Below are positions 2,855 to 24,687 of a stretch of DNA of 30,384 nt, in pieces. A program made the position numbers and the translations under genes. Origin of the DNA: Oscillospiraceae bacterium (GTDB lineage: Bacteria > Bacillota_A > Clostridia > Oscillospirales > Oscillospiraceae); the NCBI GenBank assembly GCA_021771675.1, contig JAETOP010000040.1:1-30384 (forward strand). Reading direction: 5' to 3'. Numbering within the stretch: the first letter of the stretch is position 1; each line of letters begins with the position of its first letter. Under the pieces are notes generated by a model. It was given only the letters and a program-made list of their open reading frames with translations, was not told where the DNA came from and ran no database searches.

Positions 2855-2855
2855 C

Positions 2856-3207: not shown

Positions 3208-4072
3208 ATGCCCTACATCCATTTCACAGAGGAACAAAAGCTCCGGGCCAACGCGGCAGACCTGGTGGAGTTCCTCCGTTTCAAGGGGGAGCCGCTGATC
3301 CGCGAAGGGTCGGAGTTCCGCATGGCCAGCAACCACAGCGTCACCATACGGGGCAGCGAGTGGTACGACCATGCCACCGAGAAGGGCGGCGGGCCCGTGA
3401 CCTTCCTCAAAGAGTTCTACGGTATGAGCTACCAGGAAGCGGTGCTCACCCTGCTCAACGAGGACGCCGGCCAGCTCTGCCCCCAGGCGAGCGCCCCACA
3501 GGAGAAAGTGAAAAAGTCCTTCGAGCTGCCACCCGCCAACGAAAACAACAGGCGGGTGTTCGCATACCTGCTCAAGCACCGCCATCTGGATCGGGACGTG
3601 CTCACCGCCTTTGCCCGGGCGGGGCTGATCTACGAGGATCAGAAATACCACAACGCCGTCTTTGTGGGCAAAGACCTGGATGGCGTCGCCCGTCACGCCC
3701 ACAAGCGCAGCACCAACAGCCAAGGCAAGACCTTTCGCATGACGGCAGAGGGCAGCGACTTCCGCTACGCCTTCAACTGGCCGGGTACCAGCGGCCATTT
3801 GCTGGTATTCGAGGCGCCCATCGATATGCTCTCCCTCATCTCCATCTACCACGACAGCGACTGGACGAAGCACAGCTATGTGGCCTTGTGCGGCACGTCC
3901 TCCCAGCCGCTGCTGGGGATGCTGGAGCGGCACCCCAACATTGAAAACGTCCTGCTGTGCCTGGACAACGACCAGGCGGGGCAGCTTGCCACGCGGCGGC
4001 TGGCAGGGGTGGTGCGGGAGCGGGGAATGACGGTAGGCGCACAGGTGCCGGTTCTCAAAGATTGGAACGAGG
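3208..4072 (+). CDS. DUF3991/toprim protein, exon 1 (gene split by a group II intron)
   Basis: This is the 5' exon of a conserved element gene with a DUF3991 region followed by a toprim domain, a fold found in primases and nicking enzymes; its exact role in transfer is unknown. The N-terminal 80 residues include a zinc-finger-like YDHATEKGGGPVTFLKEFYG phrase without the usual cysteines, as in primase-like families. The toprim part shows LVFEAPIDMLSLISI and the acidic LLCLDNDQAGQ motif (about residues 252-262). The ribosome site GAGGTG precedes ATG 3208. The frame runs to a stop at 4096-4098, but the residues after KDWNE come from the intron. Splicing 4072 to 6882 restores KDWNED and gives a 307-residue protein. 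Confidence 0.85.
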
Positions 4073-4860
4073 GTGCAGCGACACGTTGCTGCAAATAAAC
4101 TTTGACTGGGCTTAGAGCCTGGAAGGAGGTAAAAGCAGCGGGAAAAGCAGAGAAAATCCTGCTTTTCCTAACTGATATTCTGAGAAGTGGAATGATGGGG
4201 TAACGCCCTGAAACGCTTCCCCTGAGACTGCGTTGGAGGAAAGGGAGCGCAATCTCCCGGACTGACACAGCACGCTGAAGTCGGCTGAGCACACTCGCCT
4301 TACATGAGGTAAAAGACGGTAGGGCAAAAGCGAGCCAGAGGTGGCCGCGAGTGATAGGCCGGGGGTTCATAACCGCATATGGCGAGAATCGCAGAAATGC
4401 TGACAAAATCCCGAATGTACAAGTCTAAATCCAGAGCGGTCAAAAAGGCCGCAGCCGTGAAAACGGCGTGTGTGAGGTGGAGTAAAACTCCTCGTTATGA
4501 AACACCTTATGGCGTTACAGGCGCCATCCAGCACACAGGCTTATAGGGAAACCTAAGTGCGGTTGCAAAAGGATAGGAATATTGGAACGTGGAAAGTTCC
4601 CGACGTGGAGCCATTGCGGGCAAAGAAGCGTTGGGGAGGAAAGCCGTGTCGCCGCCCATCGGAGGTGCGGTATAACTCCTCTTAATCGGGGATGAAACAG
4701 CAGCCATGGTACCAGTGAAACCGTGAAAAAAGTAAGCGGTGGAGGGACGGGCTGTAGTCAAGGTAAGGTTGCAAGTTAAAAAAATCAGAGTGCAAACAAA
4801 CTCCATAGGTTCGAGTAGGACTAAGAAAGGCCGAATCCAAAACAGGAAAGTAGGCCGACT

Positions 4861-6786: not shown

Positions 6787-6798
6787 TACCTTGATGGC

Positions 6799-6832: not shown

Positions 6833-6881
6833 AGAGCGGGGGAAAATCCGGTGATAACATCAAAGGATTACCTATCGCTAT

Positions 6882-8809: not shown

Positions 8810-8813
8810 TATC

Positions 8814-9148: not shown

Positions 9149-9754
9149 ATGACAGGGAATACATACGGCTACGTCCGGGTGTCCACCCACGAGCAGAACG
9201 AGGCCCGCCAACTCATCGCACTGCGGGAGGCGGCGGTTCCGGAGCAGAACATCTACATGGACAAACAGTCCGGGAAAGACTTCAACCGTCCGGCCTATCA
9301 GAAAATGGTGAAAAAATTGAAACGGGGCGACCTGCTGATTATCAAGAGCATCGACCGGCTGGGCCGCAACTATGAGGAAATCCTGGAGCAATGGCGGATT
9401 ATCACCAAGGGGAGGCAGGTGGACGTCCGTGTGCTGGATATGCCCCTGCTGGACACCAGCATCCACCGCGATCTGACCGGGACGCTGATCGCGGATATTG
9501 TGCTTCAGCTTCTCAGCTATGTGGCTCAAAATGAACGGGAGAACATCCGACAGCGGCAGGCGGAGGGCATCGCGGCGGCAAAAGCGCGGGGGGTCAAGCT
9601 CGGAAGGCCGTCCCGGCCGCTGCCGGATAACTTTTGCCAGGTTCACAGAGACTGGAGAAATAAAAAAATGACCCTCCGGCAGGCCGCACAAGCGTGCGCC
9701 ATGCCAGAAGGAACCTTCTATGCCAAGGCGGTTCGATTTGAAAAAACCATATAA
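9149..9754 (+). CDS. Small serine resolvase/invertase
   Basis: The 201-residue protein has the size and layout of Tn3-type resolvases and invertases, which recombine two short sites through a serine intermediate. The N-terminal YGYVRVSTHEQN contains the catalytic S12, and IKSIDRLGRNYEEI is the conserved arginine-containing motif (about residues 65-78). A long E helix (about 118-145, NERENIRQRQAEGIAAAKARG) leads into a C-terminal helix-turn-helix (about 172-195). ATG 9149 is fixed by AGAAGGAGG just upstream. An in-frame extension to 9023 overlaps the previous gene and is rejected. Flanking inverted repeats are candidate recombination or operator sites. It may resolve cointegrates or invert a segment, but no invertible promoter is obvious. 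Confidence 0.9.
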   Translation: MTGNTYGYVRVSTHEQNEARQLIALREAAVPEQNIYMDKQSGKDFNRPAYQKMVKKLKRGDLLIIKSIDRLGRNYEEILEQWRIITKGRQVDVRVLDMPLLDTSIHRDLTGTLIADIVLQLLSYVAQNERENIRQRQAEGIAAAKARGVKLGRPSRPLPDNFCQVHRDWRNKKMTLRQAAQACAMPEGTFYAKAVRFEKTI

Positions 9755-9766
9755 CAGCCAACGCGG

Positions 9767-9796
9767 CACTTTGTAAATGTGTACTTTTACAAAGTG
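9767..9796. repeat. Inverted repeat CACTTTGTAAA/TTTACAAAGTG
   Basis: A perfect 11-bp inverted repeat with an 8-base spacer, CACTTTGTAAA (9767-9777) and TTTACAAAGTG (9786-9796), begins 12 bases after the resolvase stop. The 15-base unit at 9763-9777 (GCGGCACTTTGTAAA) recurs exactly at 9878-9892. It is a candidate res-type site or operator. Confidence 0.7.
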
Positions 9797-9883
9797 GACA
9801 GGCATCCAGAAATTTTTTTGTTTTCACTCTTATTTTTCAAGCCTTTGCGCCGAATAAATGGGTGTAGGCAAAATAAAGCGGCA

Positions 9884-9909
9884 CTTTGTAAAGGTACACC
9901 TTTGCAAAG
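9884..9909. repeat. Near-perfect inverted repeat before the next gene
   Basis: CTTTGTAAAGGT (9884-9895) and ACCTTTGCAAAG (9898-9909) pair with one mismatch across a 2-base spacer. It shares GCGGCACTTTGTAAA with the repeat 115 bases upstream and lies about 60 bases before the GTG start at 9967. It is probably bound by the resolvase or by the catalytic-domain-less protein that follows. Confidence 0.65.
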
Positions 9910-9966
9910 CGGGCTTTTATTGAACCCACACGGAGACAGCCGGATAAGCCGAAGGGAGGCAGGCCA

Positions 9967-10350
9967 GTGTCCGCGATTTTGCAAATTAACAGCGAGGGAA
10001 CGCAAGAATACATCCAGAAACTGGCGCAAGATGTGGTATCAGAGATTTCCAGGCTGGATCCCTCCCACAGCAAGGAGCTGCTGGGGATTCTTGTTTCCGA
10101 AGTGTTCCGCGCCGCAACAGAGCAGGAACGGCGCGAGGAGCGCCGCCAGCGTCAGGCAGAGGGCATCGCGGCGGCAAAGGCCAATGGAGTGCATTTTGGG
10201 CCGCTGCCCCGGACGATGCCGGAAAACTTTGAAACGCTGCGGCAGGCATGGCGGAGTAAGGAACTGACCTTAAAGGAAGCGGCGGAAGCCTGCGGCGTCC
10301 CGAAGTCTACGTTCCGTGACGCCGCCCTCCGGGCGGAAGCGAACAGGTGA
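9967..10350 (+). CDS. Resolvase-like DNA-binding protein lacking the catalytic domain
   Basis: The 127-residue protein keeps only the second half of a resolvase. From about residue 56 it aligns with the neighbouring resolvase: REERRQRQAEGIAAAKANG against RENIRQRQAEGIAAAKARG, then a helix-turn-helix (LTLKEAAEACGVPKSTFRD against MTLRQAAQACAMPEGTFYA). The catalytic serine domain is absent and replaced by about 50 unrelated helical residues (EYIQKLAQDVVSEISRL). GTG 9967 has a good ribosome site (AGGGAGG). Such a protein could bind the same sites as the resolvase without cutting, acting as a repressor or architectural partner. The nuclease-dead TnpB gene starts 25 bases downstream, so the two are probably co-transcribed. 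The function is inferred, not known. Confidence 0.75.
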   Translation: MSAILQINSEGTQEYIQKLAQDVVSEISRLDPSHSKELLGILVSEVFRAATEQERREERRQRQAEGIAAAKANGVHFGPLPRTMPENFETLRQAWRSKELTLKEAAEACGVPKSTFRDAALRAEANR

Positions 10351-10375: not shown

Positions 10376-11557
10376 ATGCCGCGGAGGCCGAAAACAACTT
10401 GCGCGGACGGCATGACGGTTCAGTACACCACCATCAAGGCCCGTCTCTATCCCAACGAGGCCCAGGCAGAGCTGTTTGAAAAGACCTTCGGCTGCTGCCG
10501 CTGGATCTGGAACCATATGCTGGCCGACCAGCAGCGGTTCTACCTGGAGACCGACCAGCACTTCATCCCCACCCCGGCCAAGTACAAAAAGGAAGCCACT
10601 TTCCTCACCGAGGTGGACAATCAGGCGTTAATCCAGGAGCACAACAAGCTGTCCCAGGCGTTCCGGGTGTTCTTCAAAAGTCCCGAGCACTTTGGCTACC
10701 CCAACTTTAAGAAGAAGAAAACTGACCGGGATTCTTTCACCGCCTGTAACCACGTCTTTGAGTCCGGCCCTACCATTTACATCACGAAGGACGGCATCCG
10801 CATGACCAAGGCGGGCATCGTCAAGGCCAAATTCCCCCAGCGTCCCCGGAACGGCTGGAAGCTCCGGCGGGTGACGGTGGAGAAAACCAAGACCGGCAAA
10901 TACTTCGCTTCTATTTTATATGAGTACACCGTGAAGGAGCCGGAATCCATTGCCCCGACCGCAGAGGCAACGATTGGTCTGAAATATTCCATGCCGCACT
11001 TCTATGTTGTGGACAATGGTGAGCTGGCCGACGCCCCCCACTGGCTGAAGCAGTCTCAGGAAAAGCTGACAAAGCTCCAGAAACGGCTCAGCCGGATGGA
11101 ACCAGGTTCCAGGAACTATCAGGAAGCCGTCCAAAAATACCGTCTGCTCCACGAGCACATCGCCAACCAGCGGCGCGACTTCATCCACAAGGAATCCAGC
11201 CGGATAGCCAACGGCTGGGACGCCGTGTGCGTGAGGGACGATGACCTGCAGGAGATGGCCCGGGAGATCAAACTGGGCAGCGTGCCGGACAGCGGCTTCG
11301 GGATGTTCCGGGAGTGCCTGCGGTATAAGCTGGCACGGCAGGGCAAGGCGTTGATCGTGGTTGACCGCTACGCCCCCACCAGCCGCACCTGCTCCGCCTG
11401 TGGGCTGGTTTTGGATGACGCCATCCATTACAAGAAGCGGATCTGGACTTGCCCCAAGTGCGGCGCGGTGCACAGCCGGGAGGTCAACGCCGCAAAGAAC
11501 ATCAAGGCCCAGGGCCTTTCCCAGTATTTCAGTATGCAGGAGCGAGAAGTCGCTTAA
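10376..11557 (+). CDS. tldR: Nuclease-dead TnpB-like protein, candidate TldR RNA-guided repressor
   Basis: This 393-residue TnpB homologue has the family layout: N-terminal beta/helical DNA- and RNA-binding part (KARLYPNEAQAELFEKTFGCCRW pattern, about residues 21-43), RuvC from about 195, and a zinc ribbon with intact CSAC (339-342) and CPKC (359-362). The expected RuvC acids are all changed. The usual GLDYS aspartate is K203 (IGLKYSMPHF), the glutamate of the VEDLNM motif is R287 (VCVRDDDLQEM), and the last RDxNAA aspartate is E369 (SREVNAAKN). DNA cleavage is therefore unlikely, while guided binding may remain. No TnpA and no transposon ends are apparent. TldR proteins of this kind are known beside fliC in enterobacterial prophages, where they repress host flagellin. 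Here csrA and a flagellin gene follow. ATG 10376 is supported by AAAGGAG, about 9 bases upstream. Confidence 0.88.
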   Translation: MPRRPKTTCADGMTVQYTTIKARLYPNEAQAELFEKTFGCCRWIWNHMLADQQRFYLETDQHFIPTPAKYKKEATFLTEVDNQALIQEHNKLSQAFRVFFKSPEHFGYPNFKKKKTDRDSFTACNHVFESGPTIYITKDGIRMTKAGIVKAKFPQRPRNGWKLRRVTVEKTKTGKYFASILYEYTVKEPESIAPTAEATIGLKYSMPHFYVVDNGELADAPHWLKQSQEKLTKLQKRLSRMEPGSRNYQEAVQKYRLLHEHIANQRRDFIHKESSRIANGWDAVCVRDDDLQEMAREIKLGSVPDSGFGMFRECLRYKLARQGKALIVVDRYAPTSRTCSACGLVLDDAIHYKKRIWTCPKCGAVHSREVNAAKNIKAQGLSQYFSMQEREVA

Positions 11558-11690
11558 AGCATAAAACCCCAGCTATACCGGTCGGGACGCCGGTGAACGC
11601 CCATGAACCTCGGCTGGGAACCTTGCGTGAAACAGAAGATTTCGATGTTCCGTTTCACGCAGCGTTTCCAGGCCGTTGAGTGGGAAACGA
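11558..11690 (+). ncRNA. Candidate guide RNA (omega-RNA-like) of the TnpB-like protein
   Basis: In TnpB and TldR loci the guide RNA is encoded at the 3' end of the gene, scaffold first and guide last. This stretch fits. CCCAGC (11568-11573) pairs with GCTGGG (11613-11618), enclosing an ACCGG/CCGGT hairpin (11577-11594). Next comes TGCGTGAAAC (11624-11633) paired with GTTTCACGCA (11652-11661), with a further GAA/TTC pairing inside. CGTTTCC/GGAAACG (11663-11689) follows. The guide could start about 11639, after AGAAG, or about 11659, after the TTCAC that often ends such scaffolds. No transcript data are available, so the boundaries are guesses. Confidence 0.55.
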
Positions 11691-11781
11691 GAGGCCGTCT
11701 TTCTTTCGAATCGCGGTTGAAGGCCCTTATGGGGCCGTCCAAAATATTATGACGATGAAAAGCTGGCGAAAGGAGTTTGCC

Positions 11782-12159
11782 ATGCTGGTGCTGCAACTCA
11801 GGACAGGGGAGTACATGACCATCGGCGACGATGTAGTGATCCAGGTCAATGATGTTTCCGGCGACCGCTGCAAGCTGATGATCAAGGCCCCCAGGGAAAT
11901 CCCCGTGATACGGGGCGAGCTGCTGGAACGGGCCGGCGCGGGTCGCCCGGAAGGCGTGGCGGAAACGTCACGCCGCCAGCACAAGCCTGGGCCGGATCTA
12001 TCTTGGAACCGGAACAAATCCCAGGCACTGATCGCCATGCGGCGGCTGCTGGGCCAGATGGACAGCGGGGACGACAACGTAAAAAACCTGCGCCGCCAGC
12101 TGGACTTCCTGTTCCCGCCCGAATTCGCGTCCAACGAGACAATCTACGCCCCGAAATAA
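11782..12159 (+). CDS. csrA: CsrA-like RNA-binding protein with long C-terminal extension
   Basis: The first 50 residues are a CsrA domain (MLVLQLRTGEYMTIGDD, then IKAPREIPVIRGELLE). CsrA dimers bind GGA motifs in mRNA leaders and block ribosomes; in Bacillus subtilis the main target is flagellin (hag) mRNA. R7 and R44, two RNA-contacting positions, are kept, while position 6, usually Arg, is Leu. The protein has 125 residues, about twice the usual length. The extra 75 include a helical stretch (SQALIAMRRLLGQM) and a charged segment, for which I recognise no domain. ATG 11782 has a clear AAGGAG 6 bases upstream. It lies between the TnpB-like gene and the flagellin gene, whose leader carries GGA hairpins, so flagellin is the likely target. 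No FliW gene is seen here. Confidence 0.85.
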   Translation: MLVLQLRTGEYMTIGDDVVIQVNDVSGDRCKLMIKAPREIPVIRGELLERAGAGRPEGVAETSRRQHKPGPDLSWNRNKSQALIAMRRLLGQMDSGDDNVKNLRRQLDFLFPPEFASNETIYAPK

Positions 12160-12328: not shown

Positions 12329-14104
12329 ATGAGGATCCAACACAACATAATGGCCATGAACGCCTACCGGAACTACACCAACAACGTCTCCGCCATGAAG
12401 GCGAACCTGGAGAAGCTCTCCTCCGGCTACAAGATCAACCGCGCCGGCGACGACGCCGCTGGTCTGGCCATTTCCGAAAAGATGCGGGCTCAGATCACCG
12501 GCCTGGAGACCGCCCAGAAGAACGCCAAGGACGGCATCAGCCTGGTGCAGACCGCTGAGGGCGCCCTGACTGAGGTCCACGATATGCTCAACCGTATGGT
12601 GGAGCTGGCCACCCAGTCCGCCAACGGCACCTACGACAACGACACCGACCGCGCCCAGATGCAGAAGGAGCTGGATCAGCTCCGCTCCGAGATCAACCGC
12701 ATCGCCGACAGCTCCAACTTCAACGGCATCAAGCTGTTCGACGGCTCCATGGAGGCCGATAAGGTGGAGTACAGTGTTTCCGGCGGCAAGAATCTGACCA
12801 TCCTGGCCGGCGAGACTTCGACTGTCGGCGTTGGCACCAGCACTGTCATCCATAAGGACGGCCAGCAGGCCCAGAAGACCAAGTTCGAAGTGGATCTGAA
12901 CACTATCTCCTACACCACTTCCGCCACCACTGACCAGACCGTTACCATCACCATTGGCTCCAGCATGATTACTGCTGGCATAGCGTCCGGCGCGACTGGC
13001 GCAGATTTGACCAAGCAGTTTGTGGGCTCCACCGGATCGAGGGAGGTCTTGATCGACGGCGTGAGCTACACCATGACGAACGACGGCTCCAAGCTGGTCT
13101 TTGAGATGACCGATGAAGCTTTGGACGCCTCCACCGATGGGGTCAGCTTCTCCGGCAACTTTGCGGTCCAAATTGAGGGCCCGACCGACAGCGTTGAAGG
13201 GGGCACCATCAACGCGGCCACCCAGGTCATCACCGAGGGCGCGGCCAAGTCCGGCGTCCAGCTGGCCAACACGGAGCAAAAGACTGCGTGGACTTTGACC
13301 GACATTGTGGACGGCAAGGCCATCACCATCGGCGACACCACCTATGTGTTCGCCAGCAAGCAGGAGACCCTGGACGCCATTAAGGCCGCCGGCGGCAACT
13401 TCAAGGCCGTGGACATCAGCGACCTGGTGAACGACAAGGGCGCCCTGACAGACGCCAAGGCCAGCACCGGCGATGCCCTGTCCGAGGCTCTCAGCCGCCT
13501 GACCGTGGCCGCCAAGGACAACAAGATGTTCACCGTGGGCCAGAAAGCCGATGGCACCTACAATCTGACCTTCCAGGAGAAGCTCGGCTACAACGGCAAC
13601 GGCAAGGGCGGCCGGGCCGACCTGACCACCCAGGCGGGGATTCAGAAGCAGATCCAGGAGGGCACCTTCACCTCCAACACCGTTGCCGCCAAGAACGGCA
13701 CCGGCAAGGGCCTGACCCTGCAGATCGGCGACACCGCCGACAGCTTCAACCAGCTGAAGGTGAGCCTGGGCGATATGCACGTGTCCTCCCTGGGCATCGC
13801 CGACATCAGCATCGCCGACCAAGACAGCGCCGCCGCCGCGGTGGACGCCATCAAGGCCGCCATCAACACCGTGTCCGACGTGCGTGGTACTCTGGGCGCC
13901 ACCCAGAACCGCTTGGATCACACCATCAACAACCTGTCCGTCATGACGGAGAACATCCAGGACGCCGAGTCCACCATCCGCGACGTGGACGTGGCCGAGG
14001 AGATGATGGCGTACACCAAGAACAACATCCTGATCCAGTCCGCCCAGGCCATGCTGGCTCAGGCCAACCAGGTGCCTCAGGGCGTCCTCCAGCTCCTCCA
14101 GTAA
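12329..14104 (+). CDS. fliC: Flagellin
   Basis: The 591-residue protein is a complete flagellin, the filament subunit exported by the flagellar type III apparatus. The N-terminal D0/D1 region is canonical (MRIQHNIMAMNAYRN, LSSGYKINRAGDDAAGLAIS, about residues 1-150), and the C-terminal D1/D0 ends with VAEEMMAYTKNNILIQSAQ and NQVPQGVLQLLQ. The middle (about 160-480) is a long variable domain rich in Thr, Ala, Gly and Ser, the surface-exposed part that carries glycans. The D1 motif NRMVELATQ (about 88-96) keeps R89, L93 and Q96, aligning with residues contacted by TLR5 in Salmonella flagellin. The gene is isolated from other flagellar genes but follows tldR and csrA and precedes a glycosylation cluster, so it is probably an imported replacement subunit for the host filament. 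Confidence 0.96.
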   Translation: MRIQHNIMAMNAYRNYTNNVSAMKANLEKLSSGYKINRAGDDAAGLAISEKMRAQITGLETAQKNAKDGISLVQTAEGALTEVHDMLNRMVELATQSANGTYDNDTDRAQMQKELDQLRSEINRIADSSNFNGIKLFDGSMEADKVEYSVSGGKNLTILAGETSTVGVGTSTVIHKDGQQAQKTKFEVDLNTISYTTSATTDQTVTITIGSSMITAGIASGATGADLTKQFVGSTGSREVLIDGVSYTMTNDGSKLVFEMTDEALDASTDGVSFSGNFAVQIEGPTDSVEGGTINAATQVITEGAAKSGVQLANTEQKTAWTLTDIVDGKAITIGDTTYVFASKQETLDAIKAAGGNFKAVDISDLVNDKGALTDAKASTGDALSEALSRLTVAAKDNKMFTVGQKADGTYNLTFQEKLGYNGNGKGGRADLTTQAGIQKQIQEGTFTSNTVAAKNGTGKGLTLQIGDTADSFNQLKVSLGDMHVSSLGIADISIADQDSAAAAVDAIKAAINTVSDVRGTLGATQNRLDHTINNLSVMTENIQDAESTIRDVDVAEEMMAYTKNNILIQSAQAMLAQANQVPQGVLQLLQ

Positions 14105-14255: not shown

Positions 14256-16403
14256 ATGACAAAGCCCCTGCTGTCCATCGGCATCATTTTCAAAAACGAG
14301 ATCCGCTGCCTGGAGCGGTGCTTAAAGTCCCTCCAACCCCTGCGGGACGCCCTTCCCTGCGAGCTGGTGATGGCCGACACCGGTGCCACGGACGGGAGCC
14401 GGGCCGTGGCGGAGCAGTACGCCGACCTTGTGTTTGATTTCCCCTGGATCAACGACTTTGCCGCCGCCCGCAACGCGGTGATGGATCGCTGCTCCGGGAC
14501 GTGGTATATGACCATCGACTGCGATGAGTGGGTGGACACTAACATCGAGGGGTTCGTGGCCTTCCTGACCACGGACAAGGAATTTGACTTCGCGTCGGTG
14601 ATCATCCGCAACTATAATACGCCGCAGCTGGACGCGGACGGGGGCTATTCCGACTTCCTGGCGGTGCGGCTTCTGCGCCTGTCTACGGGTATCCGGTATG
14701 AGGGGAGCATCCATGAACATTGGCTCTATCAGGGTGACCTGCATACCATGTTGATCCGGAACGCTGTGTTCCACCATGACGGGTATGTTTTCCAGGATCC
14801 GGCCAAGAAGCAAGAAAAGCAGGAGCGGAACATGGTACCGTTGCGGGAACGTTTGGAACAGGATCCAAACGATCTGATTGTCTTGACCCAATGTATTGAA
14901 TCTGCAGATGGCCTGCCGGAGCAGGAGGACTATCTGCGCCGGGCCATGGCTGGGGTGGCCGAAAAACGATCCCAGTGGGAGCTGTTTGGCCCGGTGATCT
15001 ATCGTCATGCGGTACGCTATGCGCTTGCGAAGAATTTGCCGGAATTTGAGGAATGGCTTCAGACAGCGGAGGATATGTTCCCCAATTCCATCTTTCTCCG
15101 GGTGGAGATCGCCTATTTCACTTTTGGGTTCTATTGGAACAAAGACAATTATGACAAGAGCATTTACTGGGGGGAAAAGTATCTCCAGGGGGTAGAGGAC
15201 TACCGCACCGGGAATTTTAACCGCGGCGATCTGTTGGCCGCCGCGCTACATAAGACAGAAACCGGCAGCAAGCTCAGCGTGGCCACCGTGCTGGCCTCCG
15301 GCTACCTCCATGAGCACCAGCCGGAGAAGTGCATGAAGCTCATGGAGACGCTGAAGGGCGGCGAGATGAACGCCAAGCAGACGGGGGACTGTGTGAAAAA
15401 CCTCTGCAATGTGCAGAGCCATTACAGCCTGGACACCGCGCCGTTCCTGCTGCGGCTCTGGGAGGAGATCACCCGGCCGGGACCCAGTAAGGAGCGGGCG
15501 GATGAGCGCCGGGCGGCCTTCCTCCAGGTGGGCGCGGGGATGTTTGAGGGGCAGTTTATCCGGGAGGAGGCGGGTGAGCCGGACACCGTCCGCCACGCCT
15601 ACACCGTGTTCCTGCCCTTGGGCGATCGCTGTGATCTGGGCATCGCCGCCCAAATGCTGGAGACGGAGGACGGCGCCAAGCTGGGAACGCTGCTGGGCAA
15701 GGTGGAAAAGCCGGGGGATCTGCCCGGCCATGTACTTGCCCACGGGCTGCGGTGTGGTGTGCGCTTCCCGCTGCAGGGCCGCCCGCTGACCATAGAGCAG
15801 ATGGATCTCCTGGCGGGGGGCATCGCCCGGGAGAGGGACGAGCTCTATGATCTGGTGGGGCAGACGGCGCGGGCGGAGCTTCCGGACAGTCCCCAGGGGC
15901 TGGGCTGGGCCCGGGGGCTGTGCATGGCGGCGCTGAAGGTGTGCCCCTGGAAGGAAATTGGCGCGGAGATCGGTCTGCTGCTGGCCCGGGCCTTTGCCCA
16001 AGTGGAGAAGGCGTATCTGCCGGTATGCTATGCCAAGGAGATGCTGACGGCGGAAAACCTGTTCCTGCTGCCTCCGCTGCACCGCTTCGGCTTTTACTGC
16101 GCCCAGGCGTTCGGGGCGCTGGACGCCGGGGACGCCGCGGGCTATATACGGCTGCTGCGGGAGGGGCTGGAGGCCTGCGAGAGCGTAAAGGATATGGTGG
16201 AGTTCCTGATTGACCACACGCCGGAGCTCAAAGACCCGTCCCAGGAGCTGAAAGAGCTGGCGGAACAGATCCGGTCTGTGCTGGCGAAGTTCTCTCCGGA
16301 CGATCCGGCGGTGGCGGCGCTGAAGCAGAGCGAGGCATACCAGAAGGTGGCATATCTCATCGAGGGGATGGAACCGCCGGTGGCAGGAGGACTGATGCAA
16401 TGA
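14256..16403 (+). CDS. Family 2 glycosyltransferase, probable flagellin glycosyltransferase
   Basis: The 715-residue protein has an N-terminal GT-A domain of the GT2 family: LSIGIIFKNE (6-15), the nucleotide-binding phrase ADTGATDGS (40-48) and the metal-binding DCD at 88-90 (TIDCDEWVD). After about residue 230 comes a long helical region, possibly TPR-like, as in protein glycosyltransferases that hold a polypeptide acceptor. No membrane segment is obvious. The ribosome site AAAAGGAGA lies about 8 bases before ATG 14256. It is the first gene after the flagellin terminator. In Clostridia a GT2 enzyme next to fliC commonly puts the first sugar on flagellin Ser/Thr, which is the likely role here. 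The donor sugar cannot be deduced. Confidence 0.82.
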   Translation: MTKPLLSIGIIFKNEIRCLERCLKSLQPLRDALPCELVMADTGATDGSRAVAEQYADLVFDFPWINDFAAARNAVMDRCSGTWYMTIDCDEWVDTNIEGFVAFLTTDKEFDFASVIIRNYNTPQLDADGGYSDFLAVRLLRLSTGIRYEGSIHEHWLYQGDLHTMLIRNAVFHHDGYVFQDPAKKQEKQERNMVPLRERLEQDPNDLIVLTQCIESADGLPEQEDYLRRAMAGVAEKRSQWELFGPVIYRHAVRYALAKNLPEFEEWLQTAEDMFPNSIFLRVEIAYFTFGFYWNKDNYDKSIYWGEKYLQGVEDYRTGNFNRGDLLAAALHKTETGSKLSVATVLASGYLHEHQPEKCMKLMETLKGGEMNAKQTGDCVKNLCNVQSHYSLDTAPFLLRLWEEITRPGPSKERADERRAAFLQVGAGMFEGQFIREEAGEPDTVRHAYTVFLPLGDRCDLGIAAQMLETEDGAKLGTLLGKVEKPGDLPGHVLAHGLRCGVRFPLQGRPLTIEQMDLLAGGIARERDELYDLVGQTARAELPDSPQGLGWARGLCMAALKVCPWKEIGAEIGLLLARAFAQVEKAYLPVCYAKEMLTAENLFLLPPLHRFGFYCAQAFGALDAGDAAGYIRLLREGLEACESVKDMVEFLIDHTPELKDPSQELKELAEQIRSVLAKFSPDDPAVAALKQSEAYQKVAYLIEGMEPPVAGGLMQ

Positions 16404-17041
16404 ATACCACAGAAATCTTAAACCGCTATAAACGCAAGCAGGCAAAGGACAAACTGATCTTGATTCCAATTCTCGATTCTGATGAACGAACGATTGGGTT
16501 CCTCCGCCCGATTACCGCCGATTTTGAGGCCACCATCCCCCATTGCGTAGAGCTGCTTGACCGTTGGAGGACAGAGAACCCGACCCTTTCGCCATCCAGA
16601 TTTCCAATTACTCATGAGCGGACCCGCCAGTGGGTGAAGGACGCAATCATTGATAACGACAGGCGGATTCTGTTTCTGGTTCAAGCCTTGGATGGAACGT
16701 ATGTTGGACATATGGGACTTACTGCGATCTGCCCGGAACAAAACTGCGCTGAAATTGATTTGGTTGTAAGAGGGGTCAAAGGCGTTGTACCTGGGCTTAT
16801 GGGTTATGCAATGGAGGCCATGACTCGTTGGGGAAAACAGGAATTAAAGCTGGAGCATATTGCGGTTATGGTTTTGTGGGACAATATAAAGGGAATTGAA
16901 TTTTATAACCGCTGTGGATTCGAAAAAGAAAAGGTGATTCCGCTGCTGAAAGTTGAGAAAGAAAACGAGATCAGTTGGGTTCCGTGCGGAGCTTTGCAAG
17001 GTGAGGCTGAAAAATATTATTTTCATATGAGACTATGTTGA
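16400..17041 (+). CDS. GNAT-family N-acetyltransferase
   Basis: The 213-residue protein has the RimJ/RimL-like GNAT pattern: GFLRPITADF near the N-terminus, LFLVQALDGTYVGHMGLTAI as the central strands, EIDLVVRG, and near the end NIKGIEFYNRCGFEKE, the usual beta-6/alpha-4 region. It would move an acetyl or similar acyl group from CoA to an amino group. The start overlaps the preceding stop (ATGA), with GGAGG 9 bases upstream, so translation is probably coupled. Base composition falls here, with clearly more A and T than in the preceding gene. A likely substrate is an amino sugar made by the DegT-type enzyme downstream, but flagellin itself is possible. Confidence 0.78.
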   Translation: MNTTEILNRYKRKQAKDKLILIPILDSDERTIGFLRPITADFEATIPHCVELLDRWRTENPTLSPSRFPITHERTRQWVKDAIIDNDRRILFLVQALDGTYVGHMGLTAICPEQNCAEIDLVVRGVKGVVPGLMGYAMEAMTRWGKQELKLEHIAVMVLWDNIKGIEFYNRCGFEKEKVIPLLKVEKENEISWVPCGALQGEAEKYYFHMRLC

Positions 17042-17116
17042 CATAATGGTTCGGTACGGTATCTCAAAATCAGAAAAAGAAAACCATTTGAATTGTCAGT
17101 GGGGAGGAACCTCATT

Positions 17117-18625
17117 ATGCAGGATTATGAACAGGTTCAGATAGTAGAAACCGAAAATCTGGCAGCGCCATTGCCAGCAAATGATTTATCCACTTCCAGA
17201 AAAGGAATTTATGGAACACGGATGAGTGGCGCACCGGAGGTCACAGTTTGCATACAGGCATTTAACCGACTGGAAAAAACAAAACGATGTGTCGAGGCGA
17301 TCCTGACATATACGCAAGGGGTCGATTATGAACTGTTGTTGCTCGATCATGGCTCGTCTGACGGCACACTGGAATTCTTCCAATCTGTTCATTATGACCG
17401 TAAGAGGATTATCCACGTAACAAAAAACCTTGGTCCGCAGTATGGAACCTGTTTGGCCATGAAGTCTTTTCAGGGGCAATATCTTGTGTTAGTTACGAAC
17501 GACACAATCGTAACAAAAAACTGGATCACTAATATGCTGAGCTGCATAAAGTCTGATTCCCAAATAGGGATGGTTGTCCCCGGCAGCTCCAATGTCAGCA
17601 ATCTACAGGAGATTCCCATAACATTTTCGTCGTATCAAGAGATGCAGGAAAAAGCGGCGGCTTACAACCGGAGCGATCCGAAAAAATGGGAGCAGCGGCT
17701 CAGGGTTGTCCCCATTACCTGCATGATTAAGCGCGAGGTAATTGACTTAGTTGGAGTTTACGACACAGGCTTTTACCACGACTTTCCGGAGGACGATTTC
17801 AGCGTTAGGATTCGGCGAGCCGGGTACAAACTGATGGTATGCATGGATACGTTTGTGCATCACGATCACGATTTCCGGCACGGGGAGGACAAAGAGCAGG
17901 AGCTGTTTCAGCTTTCCCTTGAAACAGGCCGGAAGAATTTTTCTACAAAATATCATGGGCTGGACAGCTGGTCAGAAATGATTAATTATGAGGGATATAT
18001 CGCGCAGAATTTTCCCGATAAAGGAAACTTGTCGGAGCCACGGATTTTAGGAATTGATGTCATGTGTGGGGCGGCTATTCTTCAAATAAAAAACGAGCTC
18101 CGGCATAGAGGTGTGATAAACGCGGAAACCTCAGCATTTACCACGGAAGCAAAGTACTTTTGCGATCTGCAAAGTATTTGCACGGATGTTGTTTGTGACC
18201 GTATAGAACGCCTCCCAGATTTTTTTGAACACCGGAGCTTTGATTATATTGTGCTTGGAAACGCAGTTAACACATATTCGGATTTCCCTCGGCTTTTGCG
18301 AAGCCTCCTGCATGCGCTGCGACCTGCTGGGGCGTTGTTTTTGAAGCTGCGCAACACACAGGACATTATCTCTTATCTCAACATGATGGGCCGGAATTTC
18401 ACCTTGGAGGAATTTGTAACGCAGGTGTCATTTGAGCAGTTCAACGATATCCTTAAACTGCTCCATATGCGGAACTACAATGTTTTGAGTATTCCCCACC
18501 AGGTTGATGCCGCATCACAGAATGTGCTGGTGGAGTCGCTGAAAAAGTCCCAGTTGACAGATGACGTTCAGGCCTCGTTTAAGCGGCTTATGACCAGAGA
18601 ATACGCTTACTGTATCAAAAAATGA
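17117..18625 (+). CDS. Family 2 glycosyltransferase fused to a methyltransferase-like domain
   Basis: The 502-residue protein starts with a GT2 domain: VTVCIQAFNR (43-52), LLDHGSSDGT (75-84), TNDT (127-130) as the metal-binding region, and FPEDDFSVRIRRAGY as the acceptor-side motif. From about residue 305 a second domain begins, LGIDVMCGAAILQIKNEL, followed by a phrase like FDYIVLGNAVNTYSDF and LRPAGALFLKLRN. These resemble motifs I, post-I and III of Rossmann-fold SAM methyltransferases. The fusion suggests a chain-building enzyme that adds a sugar and methylates it or its neighbour. ATG 17117 has GGGGAGG about 9 bases upstream, so an earlier TTG is not needed. The methyltransferase activity is uncertain because the glycine loop is imperfect. 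Confidence 0.78.
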   Translation: MQDYEQVQIVETENLAAPLPANDLSTSRKGIYGTRMSGAPEVTVCIQAFNRLEKTKRCVEAILTYTQGVDYELLLLDHGSSDGTLEFFQSVHYDRKRIIHVTKNLGPQYGTCLAMKSFQGQYLVLVTNDTIVTKNWITNMLSCIKSDSQIGMVVPGSSNVSNLQEIPITFSSYQEMQEKAAAYNRSDPKKWEQRLRVVPITCMIKREVIDLVGVYDTGFYHDFPEDDFSVRIRRAGYKLMVCMDTFVHHDHDFRHGEDKEQELFQLSLETGRKNFSTKYHGLDSWSEMINYEGYIAQNFPDKGNLSEPRILGIDVMCGAAILQIKNELRHRGVINAETSAFTTEAKYFCDLQSICTDVVCDRIERLPDFFEHRSFDYIVLGNAVNTYSDFPRLLRSLLHALRPAGALFLKLRNTQDIISYLNMMGRNFTLEEFVTQVSFEQFNDILKLLHMRNYNVLSIPHQVDAASQNVLVESLKKSQLTDDVQASFKRLMTREYAYCIKK

Positions 18626-18639
18626 GAGGAGTACTGAAA

Positions 18640-19653
18640 ATGGCAAGGTTTTTGACCCCTGTAGACTGTAATCAAAAGCGGGAAAAGTTATACGAGATTC
18701 TTCCCCTGGAGGGGGGACCGTTTTGTGTGCGGTTTATGGTAACCAACGTTTGTAATTTCAGATGCTACTATTGCCGGCAGGCAGAACCGGAAGAACAGCG
18801 GAAAAAGCTTGGCTTGGATCATACCGTGATGTCCTTTGACGACTTTAAAAAGAGCATTGACCATCTTGAGGGATTCGACCGATTTAAAGTATTTAATTTT
18901 ACAGGGGGAGGTGAGCCGTTAACCCATCGGGATATTGTTCGCATGGTCGAATATGTCAAAAGCAAGGACTTTACAAAGTCGATTGAAATCACCACCAATG
19001 GGGCTCTGCTGACCCATGAGATGAGCGACGCACTACTGGCGGCGGGAGTAGATCGGATCAAAGTATCTCTTCAAGGCTGCTCTGATAAAGCATACCAGGA
19101 AACCTGCGGTGTGGCGATAAATTATGAGCGTTTTAAAGAGCAGCTGCAATATTTCCACGAGCATAAAGGCCCGGATGTTGTGCTGTTCGCAAAAATCATT
19201 GATAAAATGCTGCCCACTCCGGAGGCGCGGCAGAGCTTTATTGAAGAATACCGGGATATTGTGGATGAGTATGAAATTGAATGCCTGTATCCAACGCCCG
19301 GTGCCAAACAAGCGGTAGAATCGGCGTATGATAACACGCTATATGGGCAGAAGGTTGACCGTCACACGGTGTGCCCGCAGCCTTTTTATTCTACCACTGT
19401 TTTTCCAAACGGGTATGCCTATCCCTGCTGCCCACTCCCCAATCCGGCACCGATTTGTAATTTAGTGACGGATCGGCTTGCTGACTACTGGCATGGACCG
19501 GAGCACAAGGCGTTTTTACTCCGCCTTTTAAAAGGAGAGCGGGAACGAATGCCGGTATGCAAGGACTGCACGCTATTCGACTATTTTACTGCCCCAAATG
19601 ATGATTTAGACCCCTATGCCGCGGAATTGCTTGCAAAATATGAGGCCCTATGA
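18640..19653 (+). CDS. Radical SAM enzyme with extra C-terminal cysteines (SPASM-like)
   Basis: The 337-residue protein has the radical SAM cluster motif CNFRCYYC (C38, C42, C45) after a FMVTNV strand, then the SAM-binding NFTGGGEPL (about 85-93) and TTNGALLT. The C-terminus has several cysteines (VCPQPF, YPCCPLP, CNL, CKDC), consistent with a SPASM-like auxiliary cluster. Such enzymes modify peptides or sugars, for example as epimerases, dehydrogenases or methyltransferases. ATG 18640 is preferred because GAGAGGAG lies just before it. ATG 18622, overlapping the previous stop, adds six residues without a better ribosome site. Its position among the glycan genes suggests modification of a sugar or of flagellin. 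The reaction cannot be predicted. Confidence 0.85.
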   Translation: MARFLTPVDCNQKREKLYEILPLEGGPFCVRFMVTNVCNFRCYYCRQAEPEEQRKKLGLDHTVMSFDDFKKSIDHLEGFDRFKVFNFTGGGEPLTHRDIVRMVEYVKSKDFTKSIEITTNGALLTHEMSDALLAAGVDRIKVSLQGCSDKAYQETCGVAINYERFKEQLQYFHEHKGPDVVLFAKIIDKMLPTPEARQSFIEEYRDIVDEYEIECLYPTPGAKQAVESAYDNTLYGQKVDRHTVCPQPFYSTTVFPNGYAYPCCPLPNPAPICNLVTDRLADYWHGPEHKAFLLRLLKGERERMPVCKDCTLFDYFTAPNDDLDPYAAELLAKYEAL

Positions 19654-19680
19654 CAGGGGAATTGGGATGGGGTTGATGCT

Positions 19681-20451
19681 ATGAAAGTCGTAATTCTGGC
19701 CGGTGGCCTGGGCACCCGGATCAGTGAGGAGAGCTACCTAAAGCCCAAGCCCATGATCGAAATTGGCGATCAGCCGATTCTGTGGCACATTATGAAATAC
19801 TACTCCAGTTTCGGCTTCCACGATTTCATCATCTGCTGCGGCTACAAGGGCCACGTAATCAAGGAATACTTTTCGGACTATTACCTGCACCGCTCCGATG
19901 TGACCTTTGACTTTTCCGATGAAAACCGCATGACTGTGCATCAGAATGTGGCCGAGCCCTGGCGTGTGACCCTGGTGGATACCGGGCTGATGACCCAGAC
20001 CGGCGGGCGGGTAAAACGGGTGCGGAGGTACATTGGGGAAAATCCCTTCATGCTCACTTATGGCGACGGGGTGGGCGATATTGACCTAAACGCCTTGCTG
20101 GCTCAGCACCGGACGTCCGGCAAAACCGTGACGCTTACCGGCATCCAGCCCGGCGGGCGGTACGGCGTGCTGGACGTAGACGGGCAGACTGTCACCAGCT
20201 TCCGCGAAAAGGCCACGGAGGACGGCGGCTGGGTCAACGGCGGATTCATGGTGTTGGAGCCGGGGATTTTTGACCGGCTTGATGGCGACAGCTGCGTTTT
20301 GGAGCGGGAGCCGCTGGAACACTTGGCACAGGAAGGGCAGCTGGGGATCTACCGGCACAGTGGCTTCTGGCAATGTATGGATACCCAGCGGGACAAATAC
20401 AAGCTGGAGGAGCTCTGGCAAAGCGGGGATGCGCCGTGGCGCGTATGGTGA
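19681..20451 (+). CDS. rfbF: Glucose-1-phosphate cytidylyltransferase
   Basis: The 256-residue enzyme joins CTP and glucose 1-phosphate to give CDP-glucose, the first step to CDP-deoxysugars. The N-terminal signature is MKVVILAGGLGTRISEES (G8-R13 loop) with KPKPMIEIG (21-29), and the metal-site phrase YGDGVGDI follows further on. The WVNGGFMVLEP segment and the length are typical of RfbF. It precedes rfbG, whose start lies at or inside this gene's stop, an arrangement common to CDP-sugar operons. The composition is GC-rich again compared with the three genes upstream, suggesting a different origin from that block. Confidence 0.92.
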   Translation: MKVVILAGGLGTRISEESYLKPKPMIEIGDQPILWHIMKYYSSFGFHDFIICCGYKGHVIKEYFSDYYLHRSDVTFDFSDENRMTVHQNVAEPWRVTLVDTGLMTQTGGRVKRVRRYIGENPFMLTYGDGVGDIDLNALLAQHRTSGKTVTLTGIQPGGRYGVLDVDGQTVTSFREKATEDGGWVNGGFMVLEPGIFDRLDGDSCVLEREPLEHLAQEGQLGIYRHSGFWQCMDTQRDKYKLEELWQSGDAPWRVW

Positions 20452-20456
20452 CCAAC

Positions 20457-21509
20457 ATGAGACAACTGGAATTTTACCGCGGCAAGCGTGTGTTTATCAC
20501 CGGGCACACGGGCTTCAAAGGCTCCTGGCTGTGCGCCATCCTGACCATGGCAGGCGCACAGGTGACGGGCTATGCCCTTCCCCCGGCGGATCAAAGTCTC
20601 TATGGGCTGCTCGGCCTGGACGGCAAGCTGCACAGCGTGTACGGGGATATCCGGGATCTGGACAGCCTTTGGGCCGCCTTTGACCGGGCACGGCCGGAAA
20701 TGGTGTTCCATCTGGCTGCCCAGCCCATTGTCCGGGAGGGTTACCGTAACCCGGTGGGCACCTATTCCACCAACGTGATGGGGGCGGTGCATCTGCTGGA
20801 ATGCGTCCGGCGGGCGGAATCGGTTCGAAGCTTTCTCAATGTCACCACGGACAAGGTTTACGAGAATCACCAGTGGCCCTGGGGCTACCGGGAGACGGAC
20901 AATTTGAACGGCATTGACCCCTACGCCAACTCCAAATCCTGCTCAGAACTGGCGACAGACAGCTATCGGAGCAGCTTCCTGGCAGGCCAGGGGGTGGCGG
21001 TGAGCACGGCCCGAGCGGGGAACGTGATTGGGGGCGGAGATTTCGCGCCGGATCGGATTATCCCAGACTGCGTCCGCGCCGTTCAAAAAGGCGAGGCCAT
21101 CCGGCTTCGGAATCCCAGCTCCATCCGCCCGTACCAGCACGTGCTGGAGCCCTTATCCGCCTATCTGTTGATCGCCCAGCGGCAATATGAGGACGCTTCC
21201 CTGGCCGGCAGTTACAATGTGGGCCCGGACAGTTGCGACTGCCTCACCACCGGGGAGCTGGCCGACCTGTTCTGCCAGGCCTGGGGCGCTCCTGCCCGCT
21301 GGGAGCACACAGGGGAGCGCGGCCCCCACGAGGATGCCATCCTCAAGCTGGACTGCTCGAAGATCCAAAGCGTCTTGGGCTGGAGGCCGAAGTGGCACGC
21401 GCCGCAGGCGGTGTCAGAAACGGTGGCCTGGGCCAGGCAGTGGCTGGCGGGAAACGATATGGATGTATATACGGCAAGACAGATCGAAACGTATTTTGCG
21501 AAACGCTAA
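20457..21509 (+). CDS. rfbG: CDP-glucose 4,6-dehydratase
   Basis: The enzyme converts CDP-glucose to CDP-4-keto-6-deoxyglucose. It is a short-chain dehydrogenase-type protein with an NAD-binding loop near the N-terminus (VFITGHTGFKGSW), LNVTTDKVYEN in the active-site region and the catalytic YANSK pair (DPYANSKSCSE). About 350 residues is normal. The start is ambiguous: ATG 20457 follows GGTGA and gives the usual beginning MRQLEFYRGKRVFITGHTG, whereas ATG 20445 overlaps the rfbF stop and adds four residues. Overlap with rfbF implies translational coupling. The product is the branch point for many 6-deoxysugars, and the aminotransferase, epimerase and C-methyltransferase downstream fit as next steps. 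Confidence 0.92.
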   Translation: MRQLEFYRGKRVFITGHTGFKGSWLCAILTMAGAQVTGYALPPADQSLYGLLGLDGKLHSVYGDIRDLDSLWAAFDRARPEMVFHLAAQPIVREGYRNPVGTYSTNVMGAVHLLECVRRAESVRSFLNVTTDKVYENHQWPWGYRETDNLNGIDPYANSKSCSELATDSYRSSFLAGQGVAVSTARAGNVIGGGDFAPDRIIPDCVRAVQKGEAIRLRNPSSIRPYQHVLEPLSAYLLIAQRQYEDASLAGSYNVGPDSCDCLTTGELADLFCQAWGAPARWEHTGERGPHEDAILKLDCSKIQSVLGWRPKWHAPQAVSETVAWARQWLAGNDMDVYTARQIETYFAKR

Positions 21510-21526
21510 GGGACGAGGGATCATTC

Positions 21527-22534
21527 ATGATTCAAACCATATCTGTAAATCCTCCTGAAAGGCTCCGCGCTTATACAGAAGTTACCCTATCGGGTGGAGG
21601 ACTGGATGGCTTTCCTTTTCTCTCCATTGACCGTGACAGTTATATTGTGCAGGCAGAGGTGCAAAGCGGAATCAATTTTCGTCCAAAAGATGGACGGCAC
21701 TGCTTGGCCATCGGTAAAGGGTGCTCCTTGGCGGACGGCATCACCTTTGTGATCGACCTGAATCATGATTACCGTTCTGTTTCCCAAGGCGCCAACGCTT
21801 TTCTGGAGGGTATTGTCCCTATGACAAAAACTCCGAGAAAAGGCACCGTTATCATTCAAAATGATGTCTGGATCGGACATGGGGCAACCATTATGGCCGG
21901 GGTTACGTTACATAACGGCTGTATTGTGGCCGCGCAGGCCGTTGTCACAAAGGATGTTCCGCCTTACGCCATGGTTGGCGGCAACCCGGCGAAGATTTTG
22001 GGCTACCGCTTCGCGCCCGATACGATCACGGCACTCCAGAAAATAGCCTGGTGGGACTGGCTGGAAAAAATCCAGTGGGACAGGCGGGAGGACTTTGCCC
22101 TCCCGGTGGAGGCATTTATAGAAAAATATCTTCCGTTTACGGAAGATACTGCCCCCGGGGGCAGCGGCCACAATACCATTTACTTTCCAGTTGATGTGGG
22201 AGAGCCCTTCCCCCTCTACCCTAAAGTGCTGAAGGAGTATTTTCAAAAAGACCGTCCTAATGCCGAGCTTTTGCTCTATATATCTGTGGAGCGCTCCGCT
22301 GAGGAAAACATCCGTGCCGTAGAATGTATTTTGGAACAATATGAGGCTCGGGACAGCTGTGTGACGCTTCAAACCGGGGTGACGCTTGACGAGCGTGTTT
22401 TGTTTCAAGGCGCGGACTACTATGTCACCACCCGCGCCAAAGAGACCGTCTACCGGACCTGTTTGGCAGACCGCTATGGCACAAAGGTGCTGTATGGAAC
22501 AGACGATGGCCTGTTCCCGGACAATTTGCAATAA
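21527..22534 (+). CDS. Left-handed beta-helix acyltransferase with a C-terminal domain
   Basis: The first about 200 residues are a CatB/LpxA-like hexapeptide-repeat acetyltransferase: VIIQNDVWIGHGATIMAGVT, NGCIVAAQAVVTKDVPPYAM and VGGNPAKILGYRF, with the likely catalytic H in the NHDYRSVSQGAN area (about residues 79-90). The last about 110 residues (PNAELLLYISVERSAEENIRAV onward) form a separate domain I do not recognise; it resembles the sugar-hydroxyl or transferase tails seen in cell-surface glycan enzymes. Total length is 335. ATG 21527 has GAGGG about 8 bases upstream. In this cluster it probably acetylates an amino or hydroxyl group of the deoxysugar. Confidence 0.82.
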   Translation: MIQTISVNPPERLRAYTEVTLSGGGLDGFPFLSIDRDSYIVQAEVQSGINFRPKDGRHCLAIGKGCSLADGITFVIDLNHDYRSVSQGANAFLEGIVPMTKTPRKGTVIIQNDVWIGHGATIMAGVTLHNGCIVAAQAVVTKDVPPYAMVGGNPAKILGYRFAPDTITALQKIAWWDWLEKIQWDRREDFALPVEAFIEKYLPFTEDTAPGGSGHNTIYFPVDVGEPFPLYPKVLKEYFQKDRPNAELLLYISVERSAEENIRAVECILEQYEARDSCVTLQTGVTLDERVLFQGADYYVTTRAKETVYRTCLADRYGTKVLYGTDDGLFPDNLQ

Positions 22535-22583
22535 CGGGTACTATTCCTGACCCGATACTGTATCACTTGACGAGGCGAAAAAT

Positions 22584-24077: not shown

Positions 24078-24099
24078 CCCCCGAAAGGAGGCGAAGCAT

Positions 24100-24687
24100 A
24101 TGGGTTCCTTTGTGTTTCAGACCACAAAGCTTGAGGGCCTGTGCCTGATCAGTCCCATCTTCATCCGCGACCAGCGCGGATACTTCTCCAAACCCTTTGA
24201 GCGGGAAATCTTCGCGGCGCACGGCGTGTGCTTTGACGTGGCGGAGGAGCTGGAAAGCCGCTCTGCCCAGGGTACTCTGCGCGGCCTGCACTTCCAGCGC
24301 CGGCACAGCCAGGACAAGCTGATCCGGGTGCTGTCCGGCGAAGTCTACGATGTGGCGGTGGATCTGCGACCCGACTCGAAAACGTTTGGGGTGTGGCAGG
24401 GCTTTGTGCTGTCCGCAGAAAGCCGGGAGATGCTGTATTTGCCAAAGGGCTTTGCCCACGGTTTTTTTGCGTGCCGGGATCACACCGTCATGCACTATCT
24501 CTGCGGGGATCGGTACGACCCGGAGAGCGAGGACGGCATTCTTTGGAATGATCCCGATCTGGCAATCAACTGGCCGGTCGAACCAGGACAGCCGCCGCAA
24601 CTATCTGAACGGGATCAAGGGTTTCAAACTCTTCAGCAGTTCAAACAGTCTTTACCGCCGGACATAGGAGGAAATGAAATTGGATAA
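24100..24687 (+). CDS. rfbC: dTDP-4-dehydrorhamnose 3,5-epimerase-type sugar epimerase
   Basis: The 195-residue cupin-like enzyme of the RmlC/RfbC family epimerises C3 and/or C5 of 4-keto-6-deoxy nucleotide sugars. Conserved features are RDQRGYFSKPF at about 23-33, LRGLHFQ with the catalytic H64, DVAVDLRPDSKTFG at about 84-97 (D88) and LPKGFAHGF. The length is normal. Strong AAGGAGG lies 9 bases before ATG 24100. Although the family is named for dTDP substrates, the cluster holds CDP-sugar enzymes and no RmlA or RmlB, so a CDP-linked substrate is likelier. It overlaps the C-methyltransferase start. Confidence 0.88.
   Translation: MGSFVFQTTKLEGLCLISPIFIRDQRGYFSKPFEREIFAAHGVCFDVAEELESRSAQGTLRGLHFQRRHSQDKLIRVLSGEVYDVAVDLRPDSKTFGVWQGFVLSAESREMLYLPKGFAHGFFACRDHTVMHYLCGDRYDPESEDGILWNDPDLAINWPVEPGQPPQLSERDQGFQTLQQFKQSLPPDIGGNEIG

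Follow-up and report, generated by a model that had tools for sequence, protein, structure and literature searches.

A probable csrA-associated TldR cassette with predicted self-sparing by codon changes on a likely mobilizable element

Known TldR systems and the locus compared with them

The 2024 paper on the discovery of TldR reportedly dealt with the fliC-associated TldR of Enterobacter prophages. In that system a phage is the carrier and the guide targets the promoter of the host gene, whereas the locus described here has a predicted guide on flagellin codons 6-10, a likely mobilizable element as its carrier, and CsrA and Hin in addition. What the two would have in common is that mobile DNA brings a replacement flagellin together with a repressor, guided by RNA, that acts on the flagellin of the host (PMC13418256).

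The csrA-associated TldRs of gut commensals (Oscillibacter, Flavonifractor) combine hin, csrA and fliC, and their guides are aimed inside fliC ORFs (PMC13418256, Nat Microbiol 2026). CsrA binds the fliC leader in these systems, and ChIP-seq and RIP-seq have been reported for related TldRs (PMC13418256). Our window, by which we mean the whole 30,384-nt stretch analysed, has the same RuvC-mutated TnpB, the same adjoining csrA and fliC and a predicted guide inside the fliC ORF. The published hin lies upstream, with an inversion of roughly 120 bp that carries a FliA promoter; the window has hin and palindromic sites, with a weak promoter match. PMC13418256 describes the systems as chromosomally or host-encoded, whereas the cassette of the window is preceded by a relaxase/coupling-protein module and has sugar genes after it.

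The initial annotation, made from the letters of the window, had regarded the pairing of a dead TnpB with flagellin in Clostridia as independent or unusual. This view gives way to the published csrA-associated clade, so that the proposed TldR-like repressor was right in kind but not as an isolated occurrence (PMC13418256). Nor had it noted the csrA gene, the guide RNA and inverton predicted here, or the codon difference between self and non-self flagellins. While the clade of dead TnpBs is already known, its likely mobile-element setting seems to be new, as does the codon-based self-sparing that we predict. The main text of PMC13418256 has no term that starts with synonymous, self-target, conjugative, mobile or glycosyl, and the literature matches listed include no other paper on this clade.

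When comparing the window with active IS200/IS605 TnpB (8h1j, 8bf8), the fold, the zinc ribbon and the guide RNA downstream are common to both. The window differs in having no catalytic triad, no transposon partner seen and a predicted guide fixed on one gene across species. In Salmonella hin/fljBA phase variation the silencing arm is FljA, whereas in the window it would be an RNA-guided protein together with CsrA. The flipping of a flagellin promoter by a Hin-type recombinase would be common to the two (PMC13418256).

We read the locus as a csrA-associated TldR, an RNA-guided repressor that would bind codons 6-10 of a recipient's flagellin and block transcription, and we put the probability of this reading at roughly 0.7. 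The carried flagellin, whose codons depart from the guide within its seed, would thereby escape. Repression, sparing, inversion and transfer are all predicted. The TldR-guide complex would bind the DNA of the recipient gene and, with the guide paired to the template strand, act as a transcription roadblock. CsrA would block translation of the target mRNA, and Hin would serve as the on/off switch of the cassette. A recipient that received the entire cassette, sugar genes included, would be able to swap its flagellar filament.

Table 1. Features of the window, with positions, strand and basis of assignment
Feature	Position	Strand	Basis
RHH protein	about 310-729	+	Pfam RHH_1; syntenic homologs 53-94%
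MobL relaxase	973-2397	+	Pfam MobL; syntenic homologs 60-88%
Toprim/DUF3991 primase-like gene	3208..4098	+	Pfam; homologs 80-91% in four related stretches, 53% in a fifth
T4 coupling protein	6956-8809	+	Pfam T4SS-DNA_transf 2e-38
Winged-helix protein	8781-9071	+	Pfam HTH_36
Hin-type small serine recombinase	9149..9754	+	Pfam Resolvase 7e-31
Predicted invertible segment: 38-nt palindromic sites 9760-9797 and 9875-9912, 115 bp apart	9760..9912	.	Repeat search; similar sites in relatives
Sigma-28 (FliA)-like promoter within invertible segment, toward tldR	9830..9856	+	Motif scan, three mismatches to consensus (weak match)
127-aa protein like only the C-terminal DNA-binding part of Hin	9967..10350	+	tblastn similarity; no Pfam/NCBIfam match
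tldR, TnpB relative with K203/R287/E369 at RuvC positions	10376..11557	+	ORF, family profile, alignments, structure search
Predicted guide-RNA scaffold	11577..11742	+	Fold z -3.57; covariation across 20 loci
Long hairpin inside scaffold	about 11611-11675	+	Predicted fold
Predicted guide AATATTATGACGATGAAAAG	11743..11762	+	End of conserved scaffold; match to flagellin codons 6-10; first base uncertain by a few nt
csrA-like gene, CsrA domain and C-terminal extension	11782..12159	+	Pfam CsrA 7.3e-18
Flagellin (hag) carried with tldR	12329..14104	+	Pfam Flagellin_N 2.9e-45, Flagellin_C 1.3e-28
Carried flagellin codons 6-8 (AAC ATA ATG), mismatching guide at positions 3 and 6	12344..12352	+	Sequence comparison
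SunS-like glycosyltransferase, acetyltransferase, GT2, radical SAM, nucleotidyltransferase, sugar dehydratase, hexapeptide protein, DegT aminotransferase, sugar epimerase, C-methyltransferase	14256..25918	+	Pfam/NCBIfam
Sigma-region-4 protein	26459-26878	+	Pfam
Two large serine recombinases	27677-29236, 29240-30106	+	Pfam, NCBIfam

The putative TldR protein and its relatives

The tldR gene is an uninterrupted frame of 393 residues whose product matches NCBIfam guided_TnpB (3.9e-70). Alignment with the ISDra2 TnpB chains 8bf8 and 8h1j spans residues 21-381 and shows the three acidic positions of RuvC to be occupied by K203, R287 and E369, as the initial annotation had read from the motifs. The corresponding catalytic residues of ISDra2 TnpB are D191/E278/D361. 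K-R-E thus stands in place of the D-E-D triad of active IS605 TnpB. The claim that every catalytic residue had been lost holds in that all three are changed, but the third change is Asp to Glu, and this position stays acidic. A structure prediction, proposed along with that claim, gave a model (mean pLDDT 73) whose closest counterpart is the TnpB-omegaRNA-DNA complex 8h1j (E 8e-25), a match at the level of the fold in which the three positions are set by the sequence alignment.

Conservation of this pattern is complete among the nearest relatives listed. In a first alignment of 120 rows including the query, with the nearest homologs taken from the best 120 of 4409 matches, K-R-E and the four zinc-ribbon cysteines are found in 120/120 rows, in agreement with the earlier statement that the cysteines are kept. 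The 119 nearest relatives among the matches listed are 75-91% identical to the window's protein; one of them (P0090, 79%) is named uncultured Oscillibacter. A second alignment of 121 rows comprised 107 of the 120 proteins listed in another search (13 were omitted) and 14 others. Here D-E-D is present in only two rows, L110 and L148, at 35-36% identity, and the first Asp is absent from every other row. The third-position Asp is kept in 11 rows without the first Asp, and the second-position Glu in two. Close relatives with active residues, which would have counted against the initial annotation, were sought, and across both alignments no row at 47% identity or more has D-E-D. A scan of viral contigs returned a single distant TnpB, L148, with D-E-D, and the plasmid and phage collections hold no tldR relative at 60% identity or more.

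It is very improbable that tldR is a TnpB pseudogene, the decaying remnant of an IS605 transposon, that happens to have a flagellin neighbour. The catalytic positions do vary in more distant relatives as if unconstrained (N/K/H/S/Q/T at the first, R/K/E at the second and E/D/A/S/G at the third). Against this stand the open frame, the K-R-E and zinc ribbon common to the 119 nearest relatives, the covarying RNA described below, and the window ORFs scanned with Pfam and NCBIfam, which include no TnpA. Moreover, csrA is present in 17 of 20 related tldR loci, and flagellin likewise in 17 of 20. We rejected the dead-pseudogene reading on conservation and covariation. In the window both genes lie within 3 kb of tldR; the flagellin said to adjoin it is indeed nearby, but csrA intervenes between the two.

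Predicted guide RNA and codon differences at its target

An RNA block 3' of tldR is kept in 17 related loci. The consensus structure of its scaffold, built from 20 sequences, has 94.8% of cells paired, a value that drops to 36-46% when the structure is slid. Across the 20 loci, 22 of 39 pairs have changed on both sides, compared with 4 to 9 in slid versions, and none of 500 shuffles reaches any of five measures. The predicted guide at the end of the scaffold would be aimed inside a flagellin ORF: it matches codons 6-10 of flagellins without tldR, and flagellin starts of the AATATTATGGC type are the predicted target of the window's TldR. Since the guide has the coding-strand sequence of flagellin, it would pair with the template strand. 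The guide pattern, allowing up to 3 mismatches, occurs at 68 places in 19 related genomes, guides and flagellin starts included, compared with 7 for the reversed pattern. In a sampled family search, scaffold and guide were found together in 4 of 200 genomes; the two loci that were new are excluded from the codon counts below. The notion of a nuclease-dead TnpB under selection near flagellin is supported. A hopping transposon was also sought, but the predicted guide is aimed at the same gene in many species, which is unlike such behaviour.

Guide position 10 mismatches nearly all targets (A against G), so that either only about 9 nt serve as guide or another constraint acts there. In the window (11737-11753), a GUC at the scaffold end might form base pairs with a GAC that is conserved among the guides, and such a hairpin might explain the fixed mismatch. 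The hairpin includes the guide and was kept out of the covariation test.

Flagellin starts were collected with a pattern that leaves the third base of codon 7 open, which yielded 39 starts in 19 genomes. Eighteen of them have no tldR detected beside them and are termed unlinked; two of these have csrA upstream (G006:C7 and G016:C34). The linked set comprises 23 genes including that of the window. Omitted from it are L101 (same gene as L008), L106 (no csrA), and three members of a divergent clade, L107, L108 and G016:C110. At L014, L018 and L020 there is no flagellin within reach.

Codons 6-8 read AAT ATT ATG in 17 of the 18 unlinked genes, identical to positions 1-9 of the predicted guide of the window. 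At codon 7, all 18 pattern-found unlinked flagellins have ATT, while the linked genes have ATA (10), ATC (9), GTG (2) and ATT (2). The difference, 18/18 against 2/23, has a Fisher p of 9e-10 (not corrected for kinship). Six flagellin-domain hits missed by the start pattern were read as well, hits without a start in reach being excluded: G009:C49 and G018:C62 have ATT, G008:C118 has ATC, and three other flagellin-like proteins with a different start were left uncounted. With the three added starts, ATT stands at 20/21 unlinked against 2/23 linked (5e-9). The exception, G008:C118, lies on a contig that ends just upstream of its csrA. Its tldR could be out of sight beyond the contig end; we counted it against self-sparing. 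This locus (L157) has csrA upstream and a leader resembling that of the window (TTTATAGGAGGACTATAAA). Two unlinked flagellin starts, G016:C60 and G018:C62 (L158), are broken genes with an in-frame stop at codon 4, and excluding them leaves ATT in 18/19.

The difference is also seen guide by guide. Position 6 is mismatched in 21 of 23 linked genes and in none of 22 same-genome comparisons with unlinked genes, and at 22/23 csrA-tldR loci, among them that of the window, one to three of the first 9 nt of the guide mismatch the linked flagellin. Not every unlinked target is perfect: a single mismatch within these 9 nt occurs in 11 of the 22 comparisons, and four guides start with AAC and miss position 3 of their own genome's unlinked gene. 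For an Enterobacter TldR the seed measures 6 nt (PMC13418256), so that mismatches at codons 6 and 7 would be effective. The codon difference at the guide's seed looks like self-sparing by codon recoding.

Kinship among the flagellins was addressed with a tree from codons 12-146, codons 1-11 being left out, for which 13 of the 18 pattern-found unlinked genes were taken. Linked and unlinked genes are intermixed on it (12 changes; 448 of 500 shuffles as low). Of six independent pairs on the tree, an average of 5.7 have a codon 7 that agrees with linkage, and none has one that runs against it (median p 0.03). Five same-genome pairs were compared. Over the 405 nt of codons 12-146, linked and unlinked genes differ at only 14 nt in G002 and 13 nt in G013, but codons 6 and 7 both differ; the remaining three pairs have 34-60 nt differences.

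Differences in translation start and leader, acting through mRNA folding or CsrA binding, could produce a divergence at codons 2-11 that has nothing to do with guide escape. We regard this as unlikely. In a codon-by-codon test with 14 of the 18 pattern-found unlinked genes, codons 2, 3, 5, 6, 7 and 11 differ between the two sets (uncorrected p < 0.05), none of codons 12-48 does, and the leaders differ as well; ANGGAT CsrA-like motifs occur in 10/14 unlinked and 7/23 linked leaders. Codon 7 is the strongest, however (p 2e-8), and departs from ATT in three ways (ATA, ATC, GTG), one of which, ATA, accounts for 10 of 21 Ile codons at this position and only 7 of 587 Ile codons elsewhere in linked genes. 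At L016, ATT is kept at codon 7, but a change at codon 8 creates a mismatch to that locus' own variant guide. The differences at codons 2, 3, 5, 6 and 11 may mean that the start region travels with the leader as one unit.

A CAYAATATTAT string, like the guide of the divergent clade, is found in 3/14 unlinked leaders, where a recognisable scaffold motif is absent. These are L122 (G004:C14), L139 (G002:C111) and L146 (G015:C45), with the string 175-314 nt upstream of the unlinked flagellin.

Guide escape by the carried gene, our preferred reading, can also be set against autoregulation or dosage control, in which TldR would act on its own neighbouring flagellin and not on that of a recipient. 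Two guides match the adjacent flagellin 9/9, those of L015 and of L106 (G018:C72), the latter a tldR without csrA next to a flagellin with ATT, where autoregulation is possible. As a general account this is improbable, given the mismatches at 22/23 csrA-tldR loci. L015 and L106 are also exceptions to self-sparing, as are L107 and G016:C110, with ATT, in the divergent clade of three tldR loci; L108, the third, has ATC, and the two guides read there (L107, L108) begin about seven nt earlier on flagellin. Counting all 27 tldR-linked genes, ATT is present in 5.

Predicted inverton, sugar genes and the likely mobile setting

Of 20 related loci, 16 have a hin homolog 5' of tldR, which is partial in one case. 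Among 17 loci including the window, the sigma-28-like motif points toward tldR in three (the window, L009 and L012), away from it in 13, and was not found in L008; L017, counted as away, has an equal-scoring match on the plus strand as well. A scan allowing up to 2 mismatches misses the site of the window, which a looser scan finds. The palindromic sites and the opposite motif orientations in relatives fit an inverton like that published for Flavonifractor, and the window's promoter would be in the on orientation. The Hin-C-terminus-like protein between inverton and tldR is possibly a repressor or inversion regulator. It is present in the same place at L001, L003, L005, L010 and L020, and at G006:C7 (L043) it precedes csrA and flagellin with no tldR.

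The genes that follow the carried flagellin are likely flagellin glycan genes, a link to flagellin glycosylation that we infer. The SunS-like gene has a relative (46-47%) in both L011 and L014.

The overall gene content of the window, with a relaxase, a coupling protein and site-specific recombinases, is that of an integrative mobilizable element (Pfam; left-module synteny). The order RHH-MobL-Toprim-coupling protein-winged-helix is shared with L149, L151, L152/L153, L154 and L156, and the coupling protein is 84-96% identical in four of these stretches and 71% in L156. None of these transfer-module stretches has a match to tldR, hin or flagellin. The genes after the transfer module differ among them (10 ORFs scanned), with esterase-like and transporter genes in L149, ABC transporter genes in L151 and unnamed genes in L154; they may be cargo or flanking chromosome. 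No terminal overlap was found in the window, which stops at 30384. We conclude that the window is likely a tldR cassette on a mobilizable element.

This element had been named in the initial annotation and proves to be a real addition: MobL and the coupling protein are present in the window, and neither is found on any of the 29 tldR-bearing contigs, several of them short, in 19 related genomes. A large serine recombinase is present on at least 6 of these 29 contigs, and L003 has a distant Toprim together with a serine recombinase, so that integrative DNA may harbour further tldR loci too.

A wider and more tentative reading, which we hold slightly more likely to fail than to stand, is that the mobilizable element carries a full switch of flagellar identity. 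Once the element has entered a cell, an invertible promoter would activate the dead TnpB and CsrA, which would silence the resident flagellin at the DNA and RNA levels. The element's own flagellin and glycan genes would take over, immune through mostly synonymous recoding of the seed, and this codon-level immunity would be general in the csrA-tldR clade. If true, RNA-guided flagellin swapping is no longer confined to prophages and host chromosomes but is also carried by a likely mobilizable element in Oscillospiraceae relatives. A domesticated TnpB would then tell its own from a recipient's flagellin by a simple rule, one or two recoded seed codons. Since flagellin is a major ligand for both the immune system and phages, a filament replacement that can be transferred and switched would then matter for colonization of the gut.

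Other elements are inserted among the transfer genes. A pair of PIN-domain toxin-like and MazE/AbrB-type antitoxin-like genes lies between MobL and Toprim (2438-3131, minus strand). A group II intron (4167-6881) separates Toprim from the coupling protein, with Rfam domains at both ends and a reverse transcriptase at 4861-6786; in L149 the Toprim and coupling-protein genes are less than 100 bp apart. When the left 9.1 kb of the window was compared with plasmids, the matches listed (8 of 42 records) fell in this intron. Upstream of the serine recombinases lies an Rfam pemK RNA motif (RF02913, 67.7 bits) at 27148-27209.
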